The notes beneath the pieces were generated by a model. That model did no database searches. It was not told the DNA's origin and worked only from the letters and a program-made list of their open reading frames with translations. A stretch of DNA of 64,000 nucleotides. Source: Gimesia sp. (GTDB lineage: Bacteria; Planctomycetota; Planctomycetia; Planctomycetales; Planctomycetaceae). This document shows positions 239 through 9,022 of this stretch, piece by piece. Every line of letters begins with the position of its first letter. Positions within the stretch are counted from its first letter, which is position 1. Both the position numbers and the translations under genes were made by a program. The stretch spans positions 1-64,000 of the forward strand of contig NZ_JAVJSQ010000002.1 of the NCBI RefSeq assembly GCF_040219335.1. Direction: 5' to 3'.

Positions 239-2860
239 TTAGTGTTGAAATATCACCAGGTGATCGGGGGCGAGTTGGATTTCGTTGTCCTGGATCAGGG
301 GCTCTGATACCGAGGAGAGCTCAAGCGAACCTGTAAGGGGGATGCGAACGGGTTCTGCGTCCGTATCTGTGACCGGGGTGAGACGGGCGTGGATAGTGAT
401 CGTGCTCCCCTGCTCTGGCTGCAGGTATTGGAGCGTGAAAATATTGTGCTCCCGGTCAACGCTGGTCTGCAGGTGGTCAGCGGTCAGCCAACCTGCGTCG
501 ATCCCCTGTTTGCGGAAGTGGAGCAGGCTTTGATACCAGTGGAACATGTCCGGATCTCGGTGCGGGGCTTCATTCCATTTCGCTTTGAAAAACGCTTCGG
601 CCTGCGAGGGGAGCAACGCATCCTGCCAGATATGAGGTGGGTAATCGCCTCGACGGCCGATGTCGACGGCGTCGCGGAGATGTCGATCTTCAAAGTCGAC
701 GAAGAAAGGAAACGGCGCGGAAGTTGCGAATTCTTCCCCCATGAAGATCAGCGGAATTCCAGGATATAGGAGTACCAGACCGGCGGCTGCTTTCTGGAAC
801 GGTTTGGACGTCAGATGGTGAATCCGTTTGCCGTGCGGATGGTTGCCGACGCTGTCATGGGTTTGCAATGCGATGACCAGCGACTCGAAATGCCGGCTGT
901 CCCGTTCCCTGTCAGTGACGCGTTGTGAGTCTTTGCCGGCGAAGACGTATCCGTGAGCCAGCGACTCCACGAGGTCCGCAGTTCCGTGGTACTGACGGTG
1001 AGTCAGCGAGAGGTCCGGCAGGACGTGAGAATAGATCGAGTACATCAGGCAATCGCACCAGATGCCGTCGTAAGGAGTGCGGTCCTGATCGGGAGTGAGG
1101 AGTTCGTGGTTGTAGGCATTGGTTTCGGCGAAGAGGTGGATGGGCCAGCGTACGGTCTCCGCGAATCGTGAGACGCCCTGGCGGATGTCATCCAGGATGT
1201 CAGGGCGACTGTCATCGTACATGCAGTGCACGGCGTCGAGGCGAAGTCCATCGAGGTGAAACTCTTCGAGCCAGTAGACAGCATTATCGACGATGAACTG
1301 CCGGACGTGTTCTGATTCCGGACCATCGTAGTTGAAGGCGTCTCCCCAGGGGGTGTGATGTTTGTCGGAAAAATAGGGACCGAATTCAGAGAGGTAGTTC
1401 CCCTCCGGTCCCAGATGGTTGTAGACCACGTCCAGAATAACGGCGAGGCCGGAGCGGTGACATTCGTCAACGAAGGCGCGGAAGTCGTCAGGTGTGCCAT
1501 AGGTGTTACGGACGGCGAAGAGGTCGACCCCGTCGTAGCCCCAGTTCCAGCGACCGGGAGACTGGGCGACCGGCATGATTTCCACTGCGGTGATGCCGAA
1601 CTCGTTCAGTTCCGGCAGGCGTTCGATGGCCGCTCGGAACGTGCCTGCCTGGGTGAAGGTGCCGACGTGCAGTTCGTAGATCACGAGGTTTTGTTTTTCA
1701 ATTCCCTGCCAGCGCTCATCGGCCCAGGGGAAGTCGCGGGGATCGATGATCTGCGAGACATTGTGGACTCCCCGCGGCTGATAACGCGAGGCGGGATCGG
1801 GGCGCGTGGTTTCTCCATCAAGGCGGTACTGATAGCAGGCATTCGTGGAGGCCTGGGGAATGGTGCCTGAATGATATCCCTGATGATCGCGCACCAGTTC
1901 GTGGCTGATGTTCGCGCTGTCGGTATTGATCTCGACATGCACCTGCTTACAATGAGGCGCCCAGACGCGGAAGTGCGTATCCCGGGAGGTCACAGGGGTG
2001 GCGCCAGGACGCGTGATTTCCGTTGGTTCGGGGGCTGCGAGTCCAAACCAGCGACAGCCTTCCAGCACTGCGGAGGTGGCGGTGGCTGAAGCGAGAAAGA
2101 GGCGGTCATCCCAACCGGATTGGCGGTGCAGGTTATAGACTCGCTGGGCCAGGCTGCGGTCGGCATTTCCGACCAGAATCGTACGGTAGCCTGCAGTGAG
2201 CGCGGCCAGGTCGTTTCCGGAGTCTCCTGAAAAGACGGTGCTGGAAGGATCGAGCTGATTCTCCTTGTGCCACCACTCGAGGGCCAGGGCCTTGGAGACG
2301 GTAGCGGGGAGCAGATCGATCAGACCATCTCCGTTAAAGGGATCGACGCTGTGAATGATCGAGTATGGGGCGTCGGTCTTGTCGAGAATCTGCTGGATGC
2401 GGTCGACTTCCTGTTCCAGCAGTGACGCGTCGGTGTAGTAACTGAGTTTGAATCTCCCCTGCTTTTCCGGTTCCTGTAAACGCAGGCCGGAAATCGGCTG
2501 CAGGAGTTCGCGGAGCTTCTCGATGGGCATCGAGGTAATGATTTGATCCTGGTAGTCCTGGTAGGCCGAGACCGGTTCAAATTCACCTGAAGTCTGGCGT
2601 TTAAAGATGGATGTGCCGACGTCGCAGATGATCCACTGCGGGATCGGCAGTTCGAACTCTTTAATCGCCTGGGAGACGGAAGCGAAGTGACGGCCCGTGA
2701 CGAAGACGACGGATACATTACGGCTCTGGAACTCTGTGGTGAGAGTCTTCAGATCGGCCTGGTTTTGGGGATCCTGATTCAGGGGGATAAAGGTGCCATC
2801 CAGATCGGTGGCCAGAATCTGGGCTGCGGGATCTGTCAGCGGATTGTCTGCGCGAGACAT
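239..2860 (-). CDS. HAD phosphatase (sucrose-phosphatase-like) fused to TreZ-like GH13 trehalohydrolase
   Basis: The protein has 873 residues in two enzymatic parts. Residues 1-275 form a HAD hydrolase of the sucrose-phosphatase/Cof type: nucleophile motif D19-L-D21-G-T and motif IV GDSGND at 212-217. Residues 290-873 match malto-oligosyltrehalose trehalohydrolase (GH13): GYDGVDLFAV near 441, VVYNHLGPEGNY near 478, nucleophile D542 in DGLRLDAVH, acid/base E579 in FAETN and D669 in QTHDSVGN. TreZ alone is usually about 580-620 residues, so the HAD part is an added module. The start has GGAG six bases upstream. It is the last gene of a minus-strand operon, 15 bases after amylosucrase. No treY partner is present, so the true substrate of the GH13 half is uncertain. 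Confidence 0.88.
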   Translation of the reverse strand: MSRADNPLTDPAAQILATDLDGTFIPLNQDPQNQADLKTLTTEFQSRNVSVVFVTGRHFASVSQAIKEFELPIPQWIICDVGTSIFKRQTSGEFEPVSAYQDYQDQIITSMPIEKLRELLQPISGLRLQEPEKQGRFKLSYYTDASLLEQEVDRIQQILDKTDAPYSIIHSVDPFNGDGLIDLLPATVSKALALEWWHKENQLDPSSTVFSGDSGNDLAALTAGYRTILVGNADRSLAQRVYNLHRQSGWDDRLFLASATATSAVLEGCRWFGLAAPEPTEITRPGATPVTSRDTHFRVWAPHCKQVHVEINTDSANISHELVRDHQGYHSGTIPQASTNACYQYRLDGETTRPDPASRYQPRGVHNVSQIIDPRDFPWADERWQGIEKQNLVIYELHVGTFTQAGTFRAAIERLPELNEFGITAVEIMPVAQSPGRWNWGYDGVDLFAVRNTYGTPDDFRAFVDECHRSGLAVILDVVYNHLGPEGNYLSEFGPYFSDKHHTPWGDAFNYDGPESEHVRQFIVDNAVYWLEEFHLDGLRLDAVHCMYDDSRPDILDDIRQGVSRFAETVRWPIHLFAETNAYNHELLTPDQDRTPYDGIWCDCLMYSIYSHVLPDLSLTHRQYHGTADLVESLAHGYVFAGKDSQRVTDRERDSRHFESLVIALQTHDSVGNHPHGKRIHHLTSKPFQKAAAGLVLLYPGIPLIFMGEEFATSAPFPFFVDFEDRHLRDAVDIGRRGDYPPHIWQDALLPSQAEAFFKAKWNEAPHRDPDMFHWYQSLLHFRKQGIDAGWLTADHLQTSVDREHNIFTLQYLQPEQGSTITIHARLTPVTDTDAEPVRIPLTGSLELSSVSEPLIQDNEIQLAPDHLVIFQH

Positions 2861-2875
2861 GGGACGCTCCGTCGG

Positions 2876-4839
<1,964 letters not shown>

Positions 4840-4843
<4 letters not shown>

Positions 4844-7077
4844 TCGATCCGATCGTTGGGAATGGTAATCTTATCTAAGAAGTTGTAGTACTTGATTCCT
4901 TCGAGGATGCCTGCAGCGTGGGTTGCCTGCGCGAAGTAGACGCGGGGTCGATTACGCAGACGTTCCAGCTCTTCGCTGTGGTTGCCGACGACGACTCCCA
5001 GGGTGCGTCCCAGCAGCATTCCCGCGTCATTTCCGGAATCGCCAGAGACAAGAACGTGTTCGGGAGCGAAGCCCCATTTCCAGAGCACGTGCCTCATTGA
5101 CAGGTCGCTGCCCCCCCGCACGGGGATGACATCCAGGTACATGCCGAGCGACATCACAACCTTAGCACGTAATCCTGCTTCCCGGAGAATTTTTTTGATT
5201 TCCGAGAGGCTGGGGCTGAGACTGGTATCAATTTCATAACTGATTTTGAATTCTGACTGATGTTCTTCGATTTGCGGGAAAAATCCGGGGAGTGAATCCA
5301 GCACTTCGCGAATTTTCTCGGGTTGCCAGGCGTAATCGATTGATTTACGCCAGCTGAGGTCGGGAGTGAGATTCTCGCCGTAGTGTAACTGTGTTCCCGC
5401 GTCCGTATCAATCAGGTCCGGCTGAGGGAGCCCCAACTCCTGGATCAGTTCCATGGCACTGTCCAGACGTCGGCCCGTCGCAATTCCAAAACCAATATGA
5501 TCATTCGCACGGATGAGTTCGATGAACTCCTGCAATGCCTCGTCATCTCCCGTCAGTGTATTGTCCAGATCGGTGATAATCAACCGGTCAAATTCGGGAA
5601 GACGACGCGAGGTCGATTTGTCGGCCAGCACGGGGGCGGGAGAGTGCTCCAGGATATCCTGCAGGTCCCTCAAGTAACGCTGCGCGTGGTTATTCCAGGA
5701 GTAATGTTCACGGGTGCCTGCGATCCCGTTTGTGGACCAGTCAGACCACTGCTCCGGCTCAGTAAGGGCGCGGAGTAGTGCGTGTTCGATGGCTTCTTTA
5801 TCCAGAGGATCGACAAGCAGGCCGTTCTGGCAGTTGGCGATTATGTCCCGCGGTCCTCCATCGTTGGTGGCGACGACGGGGAGCCCTGTGGCACCGGCTT
5901 CAAGCAGTGTGAGTCCGAACGGCTCCGTCAGGGCGGGATTGATGAAGACCCCCTTCAAAGATGTAGCGAGCCGGTAGAGCTCAGGGACATCACTCGGCGT
6001 ATGGGATTTAGGGTACGCGACCTTCCCATACAGGTTATAGCGGTCAACCAGGTAGAGCACGCGGTTGATGATGGTCCGCTGCGATTTGGGCAGATCGCGG
6101 AGGTCATCGCGAGTTCCCATGACCATCACGAGGTTGGCTTTCTCCTGCAGCTGTTCGCTTTCGCCGTAAACCTTGACCAGCATTTCCAGGTTTTTGCGTT
6201 CATCCGGTCGCGCCATGGTGAGGATCATTGGCTTGTCCGGCTCGCGCAGGAAGGGTTTCAGCTCTTCGGCGAATGCAGGTATTTTCCAGTCAGGTTTCGC
6301 AGGAGAAAATGACGAGAGATCCACGCCGGGAGGGATGACTTCCATCCGGGCGGGTTCATAGTGGTCGTAGAGTTCGTATTGCTGCTGGACTTCCTGGTTC
6401 GTGCTGGTGACTACCATGGAAGCGGTTTCCAATGCGAGTTCTTCCGCTTCGATGCGTGCGGTGAACTTGTAGCGGTTTTCCAGTTTATCCATTGATTCCG
6501 GATCAGTTTTCCCCAGTGAGAGTCGCTGGCGTTTGACCCGTCCCAGTGAATGTCCAGTAAAGACATAAGGAATGTGCAGCAGTCGGGCCAACTGGGCTCC
6601 CGCTACGCCAGCGTCCGCGTAATGTCCGTGAATGATGTCAGGCAGACCCGTGCGACGGAAGTGCTGCAGCGTCTGGTCGATAAACAGTTCCAGGTACGGC
6701 CAGAGCGATTCTTTACGCAGATAACGTTTGGGGCCGAACGGGACGCGGACGATCTTTGCGTTCTCAGAAATTGGTTCTTCAACCTGCGCGTAAGCGTCAT
6801 CGACTTTGGGGTCAATGATCTGGCGGGTGAGTACCTCGACTTCTTTAACGCGCGAGTGAGCGGCGAGTTCTTTGGCCAGTTCCAGTACGTATTTGACCTG
6901 GCCGCCGGTATCCGCATCGCGGCCCAGTTCGGGATCGTGTGCCCGAATCAAACCGTGCAGACTGATGAGCGTAATTTTCAGATCACCGCGTCTCGCAGAG
7001 GCAATGCCTGCCCCACGAGGATCAACGACTGCGTCTGAAAAGGGTTCATTTAATACGTTATGGCTCATTGAGTTCAT
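4840..7077 (-). CDS. sucrose-phosphate synthase with C-terminal sucrose-phosphatase-like HAD domain
   Basis: The 745-residue protein is a GT4 sucrose-phosphate synthase (UDP-glucose plus fructose 6-phosphate to sucrose 6-phosphate) joined to a HAD domain. The GT-B part shows [22 protein letters not shown] (39-60), HGHYADAG (150-157) and the E-x7-E motif E385-PFGLTLL-E393. From about residue 495 follows a HAD phosphatase with D503-L-D505-N-T and a VSGDSGND motif, so both acids of the phosphatase centre are kept and the enzyme may be bifunctional. Two starts are possible: ATG 7077, or ATG 7068, which sits better behind ACAGG. It is the first gene of the operon, with a roughly 530-base divergent spacer upstream. 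Confidence 0.9.
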
Positions 7078-7469: not shown

Positions 7470-7609
7470 CAGTTGTCTCATATGTGTGCGTGATGATATA
7501 ATGGGAAACGCGTGTCGCATTTGCGAGTGAGAAATCGACCGTCGATTTCTCTGTAAATTCAGTCTCGTGCTCGCTGAATTCACCGCAAATAGTGGCCGGG
7601 AGGTGTCTC

Positions 7610-9022
7610 ATGGAAAAACCTTTGCTCGTCTGTACGTTATCGAAACGTCAGGCCAGGACAGCCCTGGAGTCTGAAGGCTGCGATCTGCTGGTGGTCTCCT
7701 CTGCCGAGCAGATTCTGTCGACGGAATTCCCTCGCTCGCCCCGTTTGTTTTTGATGACGGCGACTGCAGAGAACCTGGAAGAAGTTCTGGGCGTCATCAG
7801 CGTTTTGCGCAATCAATGGCCACTGACGGACATTCTGATCTGGGCACCGGTTATCGAGAATGAGCAGGTCCGTATCTTGTTTCAGTCAGGCGTGAGGGAT
7901 GTATGTCTGTCTCAGTCCGTGGAGCAACTGCAGCAGTTGGTGAAAGAGACGCTCGAGAATCAGCAGTTTCTGCCCCGCATGCACGATCTGAGTCATCAGC
8001 GGAAAAAAGGGGCGCGTTTTGAATCGATGCTCAGTCGCAGCCTGGCGATGTGGGATCTGTTCGAACTCTGCACGCGTGTGGCACCGACGGATGCGACCGT
8101 TTTGATCGTGGGAGAGACGGGGACCGGTAAAGAACTGCTGGCGCGAGCCGTACATCGTCGTTCGGGAAGATCGGGGCGTTTTGTCGCTGCGAATTGTGCG
8201 AGTATTCCTGCGGAACTGATCAACTCCGAACTGTTCGGTCATGAGAAAGGAGCCTTCACCGGTGCGGAACGGGCCAAGAAAGGTCTGGTGATGCATGCGA
8301 ATGGAGGGACACTGTTTCTGGATGAAATTGGCGATATGCCTCCGGAAGCACAGCTGTGCCTGCTGCGGATGCTGCAGGAAAAACGGATTCGGCCTGTGGG
8401 CAGTCAGTCTGAAGTCGAGATTGATGTGCGGATCGTGGCGGCAACGAATGTACTGCTGGACCTGGCTGTCCGCGAGGGACGATTTCGCGAGGATCTGTTT
8501 TACCGACTCGATGTGATCCGCGTGAATGTGCCTCCACTGCGTCAGCGTCCGGAAGATATCTTTCTGTTGTTCGGCCATTTCACCAAACGACTGGCGCGGC
8601 ATTACGGGTTGGAACCGCCGGTCTTTACGGACAGCTTTCTGGATGCCCTGCTCGATTACGAATGGCCGGGTAATGTGCGTCAGCTGGAAAATTTCAGTGA
8701 GCGGCTGGTACTGGCCCGGTTTCCCTCGGCTCTGACAGCACGGGATTTTGCCCGACTGCGGAGTACCAATCTGGCAGAGACCGGGCAGACGCTGGAACAT
8801 AAGCAGCAGGCGGTCTGGCGGAAGAGCATTGATGCGTCGCGGACGCTGCAGGAGAATCTGGAGCCCGTGATTGAGCAGCTGGAACGCGAGTATTTACGGG
8901 CGAAGCTCAAGCAGAATTCCGGTCGGGTGGCAGAAACCGCTGACGCCGCAGGGATCAGCAGACGGACCCTCTTGCGCAAGATGAAACAGTATGGAATCGA
9001 GAAGCAGGATTTCAAAGACTGA
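7610..9022 (+). CDS. sigma54-dependent transcriptional activator with degenerate receiver domain
   Basis: This NtrC-type activator has 470 residues. The AAA+ domain shows Walker A GETGTGKE (168-175), the sigma54-contacting GAFTGA loop (214-219) and Walker [14 protein letters not shown] Fis-type helix-turn-helix ends the protein ([16 protein letters not shown]). Residues 1-130 look like a receiver fold, but the acidic pocket and phospho-Asp are not apparent, so it is probably not controlled by ordinary phosphotransfer. ATG 7610 is preferred over GTG 7592 because GGGAGGTG lies just upstream. It is divergent from the sugar operon, which makes that operon its most likely target. Confidence 0.9.

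Follow-up and report, generated by a model that had tools for sequence, protein, structure and literature searches.

A planctomycete sucrose operon with a recurrent fusion of a predicted sucrose-6-phosphate phosphatase to a TreZ-like domain of changed acceptor site

Introduction

Among the closest described systems, Synechococcus PCC 7002 has an spsA-sppA-frkA-amsA operon (PMC11046441), and the bidomain sucrose-phosphate synthase (SPS) of Synechocystis has a non-functional phosphatase domain (PMC4390843). Sucrose has been reported, or is predicted, to serve planctomycetes as a compatible solute, and trehalose has also been reported in them, R. baltica included (PMC13342039). In TreZ, the equivalent of Sulfolobus H312, Dr H332, recognises the alpha-1,1 linkage of trehalose, and the Y325 position is selectivity-related (PMC3716775). 

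Here we describe a Gimesia operon whose third gene joins a HAD phosphatase domain to a TreZ-like domain. A literature search, covering titles, openings of abstracts and selected passages, returned no description of such a HAD-TreZ fusion, which is not proof of its absence.

Results

Operon layout

The window, by which we mean the whole 64,000-nucleotide stretch of Gimesia sp. DNA that was analysed, carries three consecutive minus-strand genes for SPS, amylosucrase and the HAD-TreZ fusion. Their spacing is as originally predicted, SPS and amylosucrase overlapping by 4 bases (4840-4843) and amylosucrase being followed by HAD-TreZ after a 15-base gap (2861-2875).

4840..7077, minus strand: sucrose-phosphate synthase (SPS), bidomain, GT4 glucosyltransferase plus HAD (TIGR02472 and TIGR02471, both above cut-off)
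4879..5589, minus strand: C-terminal HAD (S6PP) domain of SPS (PF05116 at residues 497-733; alignment to 1s2o/slr0953)
2876..4843, minus strand: amylosucrase (GH13; closest solved relatives 3ueq/1g5a; D295/E337/D402 present)
239..2860, minus strand: HAD-TreZ fusion, 873 aa, a single open frame
2039..2821, minus strand: N-terminal HAD of HAD-TreZ, predicted working sucrose-6-phosphate phosphatase (D19, D21, K190, D213, D217 present)
242..2008, minus strand: C-terminal TreZ-like GH13 domain with a CBM48-like N part (catalytic D542, E579, D669)
998..1051, minus strand: changed acceptor-side stretch in the TreZ-like domain (C604, M606, Y607, T620, H621)
7592..9022, plus strand: sigma-54-type activator (AAA plus Fis HTH), divergent from the operon (Sigma54_activat PF00158, E 1.4e-65)

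The sucrose setting first proposed for these genes is supported by the family matches of SPS (692.6 bits to TIGR02472) and of the middle gene, whose closest solved relatives, matched over nearly its full length (residues 37-653), are the amylosucrases 3ueq/1g5a (E 2.5e-205), with the sucrose hydrolase 3cze ranking behind them (E 1.1e-135); its D295/E337/D402 we take to be catalytic by analogy with Neisseria amylosucrase. The window's contig stops 238 bases beyond the HAD-TreZ stop codon, and in G097, which is 87% identical and a single contig, the next long open-reading frame after HAD-TreZ is in convergent orientation, which suggests that the operon ends with HAD-TreZ. The divergent sigma-54-type activator is a possible regulator of the operon, and homologues of 57-88% identity lie near the operon in L041, L085, L077 and L086; a scan of the window for sigma-54 promoters gave 13 matches against 17.55 expected, no signal above chance, and therefore lends no support to control by this activator.

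The two phosphatase-like domains

HAD catalysis needs the motif III lysine, and a HAD phosphatase without it is expected to be crippled. Both HAD domains of the operon keep the DxDxT and GDSGND motifs and an F-K-[LI]-S-Y segment, as the original prediction had it; what had been missed is that Ser657 of the window's SPS (5107-5109) replaces the motif III lysine of slr0953 (K163, Synechocystis SPP). Across this SPS type the K163 column holds Ser in 24 sequences, Thr in one and Ala in one, with Lys in none of the 26, and the 25 lysine-less SPS HAD rows of the HAD tree form one clade, so the lysine contrast amounts to one phylogenetic event. Inside that clade lies G088, a 65% complete genome with no third HAD among the matches listed. 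Lysine is kept in 6/6 other bidomain SPS (G002, G017, G040, G051, G074, G095), from genomes that likewise have no third HAD among the matches listed, and in the separate SPP-like protein of G096.

The N-terminal domain of the third protein matches PF05116 at residues 14-274 (E 3.3e-54) and has all the SPP motif residues: D19, D21, the Thr of the slr0953 T41 column, K190, D213 and D217. The motif III lysine is present in 32/32 third-gene HADs and in all 120 database relatives listed. Since this lysine is missing from the SPS HAD and present in the third-gene HAD, the latter is probably a working SPP, predicted from these residues to be the sucrose-6-phosphate phosphatase of the operon, and the SPS HAD is a probable pseudo-phosphatase. 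The SPS HAD could still be the active sucrose-phosphate phosphatase despite its missing lysine, with the third-gene HAD acting on some other sugar phosphate: it keeps its other motifs, it scores 303 bits to TIGR02471 (cut-off 209.75) where the third HAD reaches only 82.5, and it is the more constrained of the two (dN/dS 0.047 vs. 0.084 against G097). We hold this to be unlikely given that lysine is lost throughout its SPS type, that the S6PP family matches the third HAD at E 3.3e-54, and that 11 of the 14 standalone third-type HADs fetched from relatives without the fusion adjoin SPS or amylosucrase (the exceptions being the copies of G065, G018 and, on a 9-kb contig, G005). From these neighbours we infer that the HAD was probably in the operon before TreZ joined it. 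The third-gene HAD, first taken for a paralogue of the SPS domain, is no recent copy of it: third-gene HADs form their own clade (support 100/99) and occur as a standalone gene in relatives. The window's third-gene HAD also falls below the plant/cyanobacterial SPP cut-off TIGR01485, scoring 89.1 vs. 183.65 bits.

Against L085 the dN/dS was 0.041 for the SPS HAD, 0.109 for the third HAD and 0.130 for the TreZ part, which gave 0.084 against G097; dS is near or above 1 in these comparisons and the ratios are rough. The value of the SPS HAD against G097 argues that the domain is retained, not decaying, and it may still serve a structural or regulatory function, whilst the 0.084 of each fusion half against G097 (dS about 1) places both under purifying selection. 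In a structure model of the HAD-TreZ protein (pLDDT 88.1, pTM 0.87) a fold search matched 1s2o to the HAD, in one row only, and TreZ structures to the rest, in most rows.

The TreZ-like domain and its acceptor site

Residues 296-820 of HAD-TreZ pass the TreZ equivalog TIGR02402 (560.1 bits, cut-off 538.8). A tree of 101 TreZ-like domains, made by a quick method without bootstrap, places 17 fused and 51 unfused members from Planctomycetes/Verrucomicrobia on one side of a branch (SH-aLRT 100), and this clade stands apart from the TreY-associated group. Acceptor-site positions were compared in Sulfolobus TreZ numbering, at the positions named in PMC3716775 plus neighbours (H311 and Y326 are not among the positions named in the part of that paper available to us), and the canonical TreZ group (n=27) comprised 24 family or TreY-linked rows, two solved chains and L144; its rows G026 and G051 come from genomes without TreY.

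The catalytic triad (D252, E283, D377) is kept in 68/68 clade members and in 120/120 database relatives listed, and the donor-side Y152, D153 and W215 are invariant in the same 68, as are D308 and N381. With the three carboxylates and the donor side so conserved, it is highly unlikely that the TreZ half serves only as a glucan-binding scaffold, holding the phosphatase on glycogen without important catalysis, a role for which the CBM48-like part and the adjoining glucan-making enzyme would speak. The acceptor side has changed. Y325 is Tyr in 27/27 canonical and 8/8 Firmicutes sequences, in 0/68 clade members and in none of the 120 database relatives listed; H311 is His in 27/27, 8/8 and 0/68 respectively; and Y326 is Tyr in 27/27, 8/8 and 1/68, and is lost in 118/120 of the relatives listed. 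H312 is kept in 51/51 unfused members, 11/17 fused members and 90/120 relatives listed, and the Dr Y349 Tyr in 17/17 fused and 43/51 unfused members. In the window's protein C604, M606, Y607, T620 and H621 replace D309, H311, H312, Y325 and Y326 of Sulfolobus TreZ, so the H312 and Y325 pair expected of a TreZ is Tyr and Thr there; D308 and N381 (Dr D328, N404) and the Dr Y349 Tyr are kept in it as in all 17 fused proteins. With the triad kept and acceptor residues lost, the simplest reading is a functional hydrolase whose leaving-group site is altered and in which some trehalose contacts remain; these replacements also make a different substrate likely. Judged by these residues, the TreZ half has likely lost trehalose release or specificity, with the other named acceptor contacts kept.

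Fusion-specific residues (R594 and scattered sites) were tried as a pointer to sucrose and rejected, the acceptor-site changes being largely common to genomes without sucrose genes. As a separate observation, seven of the eight Firmicutes TreZ loci (L138, L140, L141, L143, L145, L146, L150) have a TreT-like trehalose synthase homologue near TreZ, no TreY on the fetched stretch and canonical TreZ acceptor residues; the homologue of L140, the sole one family-scanned, scores 526 bits, below the 775 cut-off.

TreY and other trehalose routes

TreY, the usual partner of TreZ and the maker of its substrate, had been noted as missing, and wider searches bear this out. A TreY profile search of the window's assembly (99.99% complete) gave nothing above cut-off, the best match (50 bits) being the amylosucrase itself, and TIGR02401 was matched above cut-off in 0/18 fusion genomes (0/6 from the family and 0/12 further ones); it is present in 20 of the 101 family genomes. 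OtsA (E 1e-20) was likewise found in 0/18 fusion genomes, and TreS above cut-off in 0/18, with weaker GH13 matches, amylosucrase included, in 17/18. Ordinary standalone TreZ occurs in 21 family genomes among the matches listed, 19 with TreY and two (G026, G051) without. For the unfused clade members 38 genomes were tested, 13 further unfused loci being left out, and TreY was found in one of them, Rhodopirellula maiorica. This genome (L104/G130) is the only one of 50 tested changed-clade genomes that also has TreY.

These counts make it improbable that the operon serves both sucrose and trehalose through a TreZ half that works as a conventional maltooligosyltrehalose trehalohydrolase on trehalose-capped chains from some unrecognised source, and Y325 and H311 are lost from every clade member, the window's protein being without H312 too. 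Such an enzyme would nevertheless explain why the equivalog cut-off is passed, why H312 persists in most fused and all unfused members with N381 and D308 in 68/68, and how R. baltica, in which trehalose is reported (PMC13342039), comes to have a member of the changed TreZ clade and no TreY found in its assembly.

Distribution of the fusion

The full HAD-TreZ fusion was found in 6 of 101 same-family genomes among the matches listed (G000, G097, G076, G066, G089, G022) and in 12 further genomes (L075-L082, L085-L087, L136; L083 is G022 again), the latter from a contig scan of which the best 80 of 539 confirmed stretches, equal to 79 distinct loci, were used. There are thus at least 18 distinct fusion genomes, all titled planctomycetes except L077 ('bacterium'). 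Of 8000 candidates scored in a protein search, 7385 reached E 1e-60 or better, and all 120 listed of these have both the S6PP and alpha-amylase Pfam domains; carriers among them include Gimesia alba, Gimesia aquarii, Posidoniimonas, Aeoliella mucimassa and Pan216. One of the 120 (P0115, 1233 aa) comes from a eukaryote protein set, perhaps through bacterial contamination. The fusion proteins are named malto-oligosyltrehalose trehalohydrolase in several database sources, and otherwise alpha-amylase or HAD-IIB hydrolase.

The fusion is real and recurrent, and the annotation artefact that might have undone the original prediction is dismissed by one open frame in 17/18 genomes (in L075 it is split into two). 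The frame at L086:9902-14302 is 1466 aa long, running ~500 aa past the TreZ domain, and holds one undetermined residue. Examined for a single origin of the fusion, the TreZ tree has 6 changes, at least 2 of them forced by starred branches, and the HAD tree 7, at least 1 forced. That the fusion would always follow SPS and amylosucrase proved too strong: 14 of the 18 come immediately after amylosucrase in the same orientation (13 of these overlap it or lie within about 70 bases, L077 at about 620 bases), that of G022 is divergent beside SPS, the L080 locus runs into a contig edge, and those of L082 and L136 have neither neighbour. Neither amylosucrase nor SPS was found anywhere in the L082 and L136 assemblies, and in that of L075 amylosucrase was found and SPS was not. 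The most divergent HADs are those of L082:9803-12631 and L136:7105-9756 (41% and 37% identity to the window's), with the lysine kept.

The 38 genomes tested with an unfused clade member, which include MAGs and may be incomplete, divide into 22 that show no SPS, amylosucrase or S6PP-family phosphatase and 16 that show all three. Within 7 kb of the unfused genes (clusters judged by eye) neighbour families recur within sub-clades, none recognised as belonging to a sugar pathway; amylosucrase and SPS are shared neighbours at the fused loci. Because unfused members without sucrose genes largely share the acceptor-site change, this change either predates the link to sucrose or is unconnected with it. 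The same observation weighs on another possible substrate. The TreZ half may clip sucrose off sucrose-capped glucans built by amylosucrase, a sucrose counterpart of the TreY/TreZ route that is attractive because an amylosucrase can glucosylate sucrose: the D. deserti enzyme turns it to theanderose (PMC11565756). As TreZ cleaves beside a non-reducing disaccharide end, accommodating fructose would mainly call for changes on the +2 side, and the domain is fused to a likely sucrose-making phosphatase beside an amylosucrase. With largely the same changed residues in genomes without found sucrose genes, and with the D. deserti enzyme yielding no detected erlose, which is the alpha-1,4 product (PMC11565756), we regard this substrate as decidedly unlikely. 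If it were true, the fused protein would make sucrose twice, from sucrose-6-phosphate and from stored glucan, and the malto-oligosyltrehalose trehalohydrolase name would conceal a family of TreZ-derived hydrolases whose end-group specificity is new.

Discussion

The reading we prefer, to which we give slightly better than even weight, is that the third protein is two-headed, its HAD half a likely working sucrose-6-phosphate phosphatase and its TreZ-like half a predicted alpha-1,4-glucan hydrolase that does not release trehalose. In this scheme SPS would make sucrose-6-phosphate, the third-gene HAD would dephosphorylate it, amylosucrase would transfer glucose from sucrose to alpha-glucan, releasing fructose, and the TreZ-like domain would shorten or remobilise the alpha-glucan so made, the fusion uniting in one protein the sucrose-making step and the breakdown of the polymer built from sucrose. 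Given the intact donor side and the adjoining amylosucrase, the best substrate guess is alpha-1,4-glucan. Several observations count against the preferred reading: the L082 and L136 fusions lie in assemblies without found amylosucrase or SPS; D308, N381 and the Dr Y349 Tyr persist in every fused protein and H312 in 11 of the 17; the loss of the SPS lysine is a single event; and the TreZ cut-off is passed whilst TIGR01485 is missed. The 22 of 38 unfused-clade genomes without SPS, amylosucrase or S6PP phosphatase count against a sucrose-specific role.

The name malto-oligosyltrehalose trehalohydrolase is probably wrong for the fusion, and its use would imply a trehalose route in planctomycetes where searches found no TreY. 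The alternative is a phosphatase that probably replaces an impaired SPS domain and is physically joined to a glucan hydrolase whose acceptor site has changed, a finding which bears on how planctomycetes balance sucrose against stored glucan.

Compared with known systems, the window's protein differs from TreZ (TIGR02402, GH13; PDB 3vgg, 2bhz) in that Y325, Y326, H311 and H312 are all replaced, and in that it is fused to a phosphatase and sits in a sucrose operon of a genome in which no TreY was found. Its HAD shares 25% identity with the Synechocystis SPP slr0953 (PDB 1s2o; PF05116) in a structural alignment, and differs from it in forming its own clade, in falling below the TIGR01485 cut-off and in its fusion to a glycoside hydrolase. 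The Synechocystis bidomain SPS (PMC4390843) is alike in pairing a phosphatase-like domain on SPS with a separate phosphatase; here the likely replacement phosphatase lies in the same operon and is fused to a TreZ-like domain. Similarly, the Synechococcus PCC 7002 operon (PMC11046441) brings genes for sucrose synthesis, phosphatase and amylosucrase together, but the available part of its description names no TreZ-like domain, and the three genes of the window do without its fructokinase.
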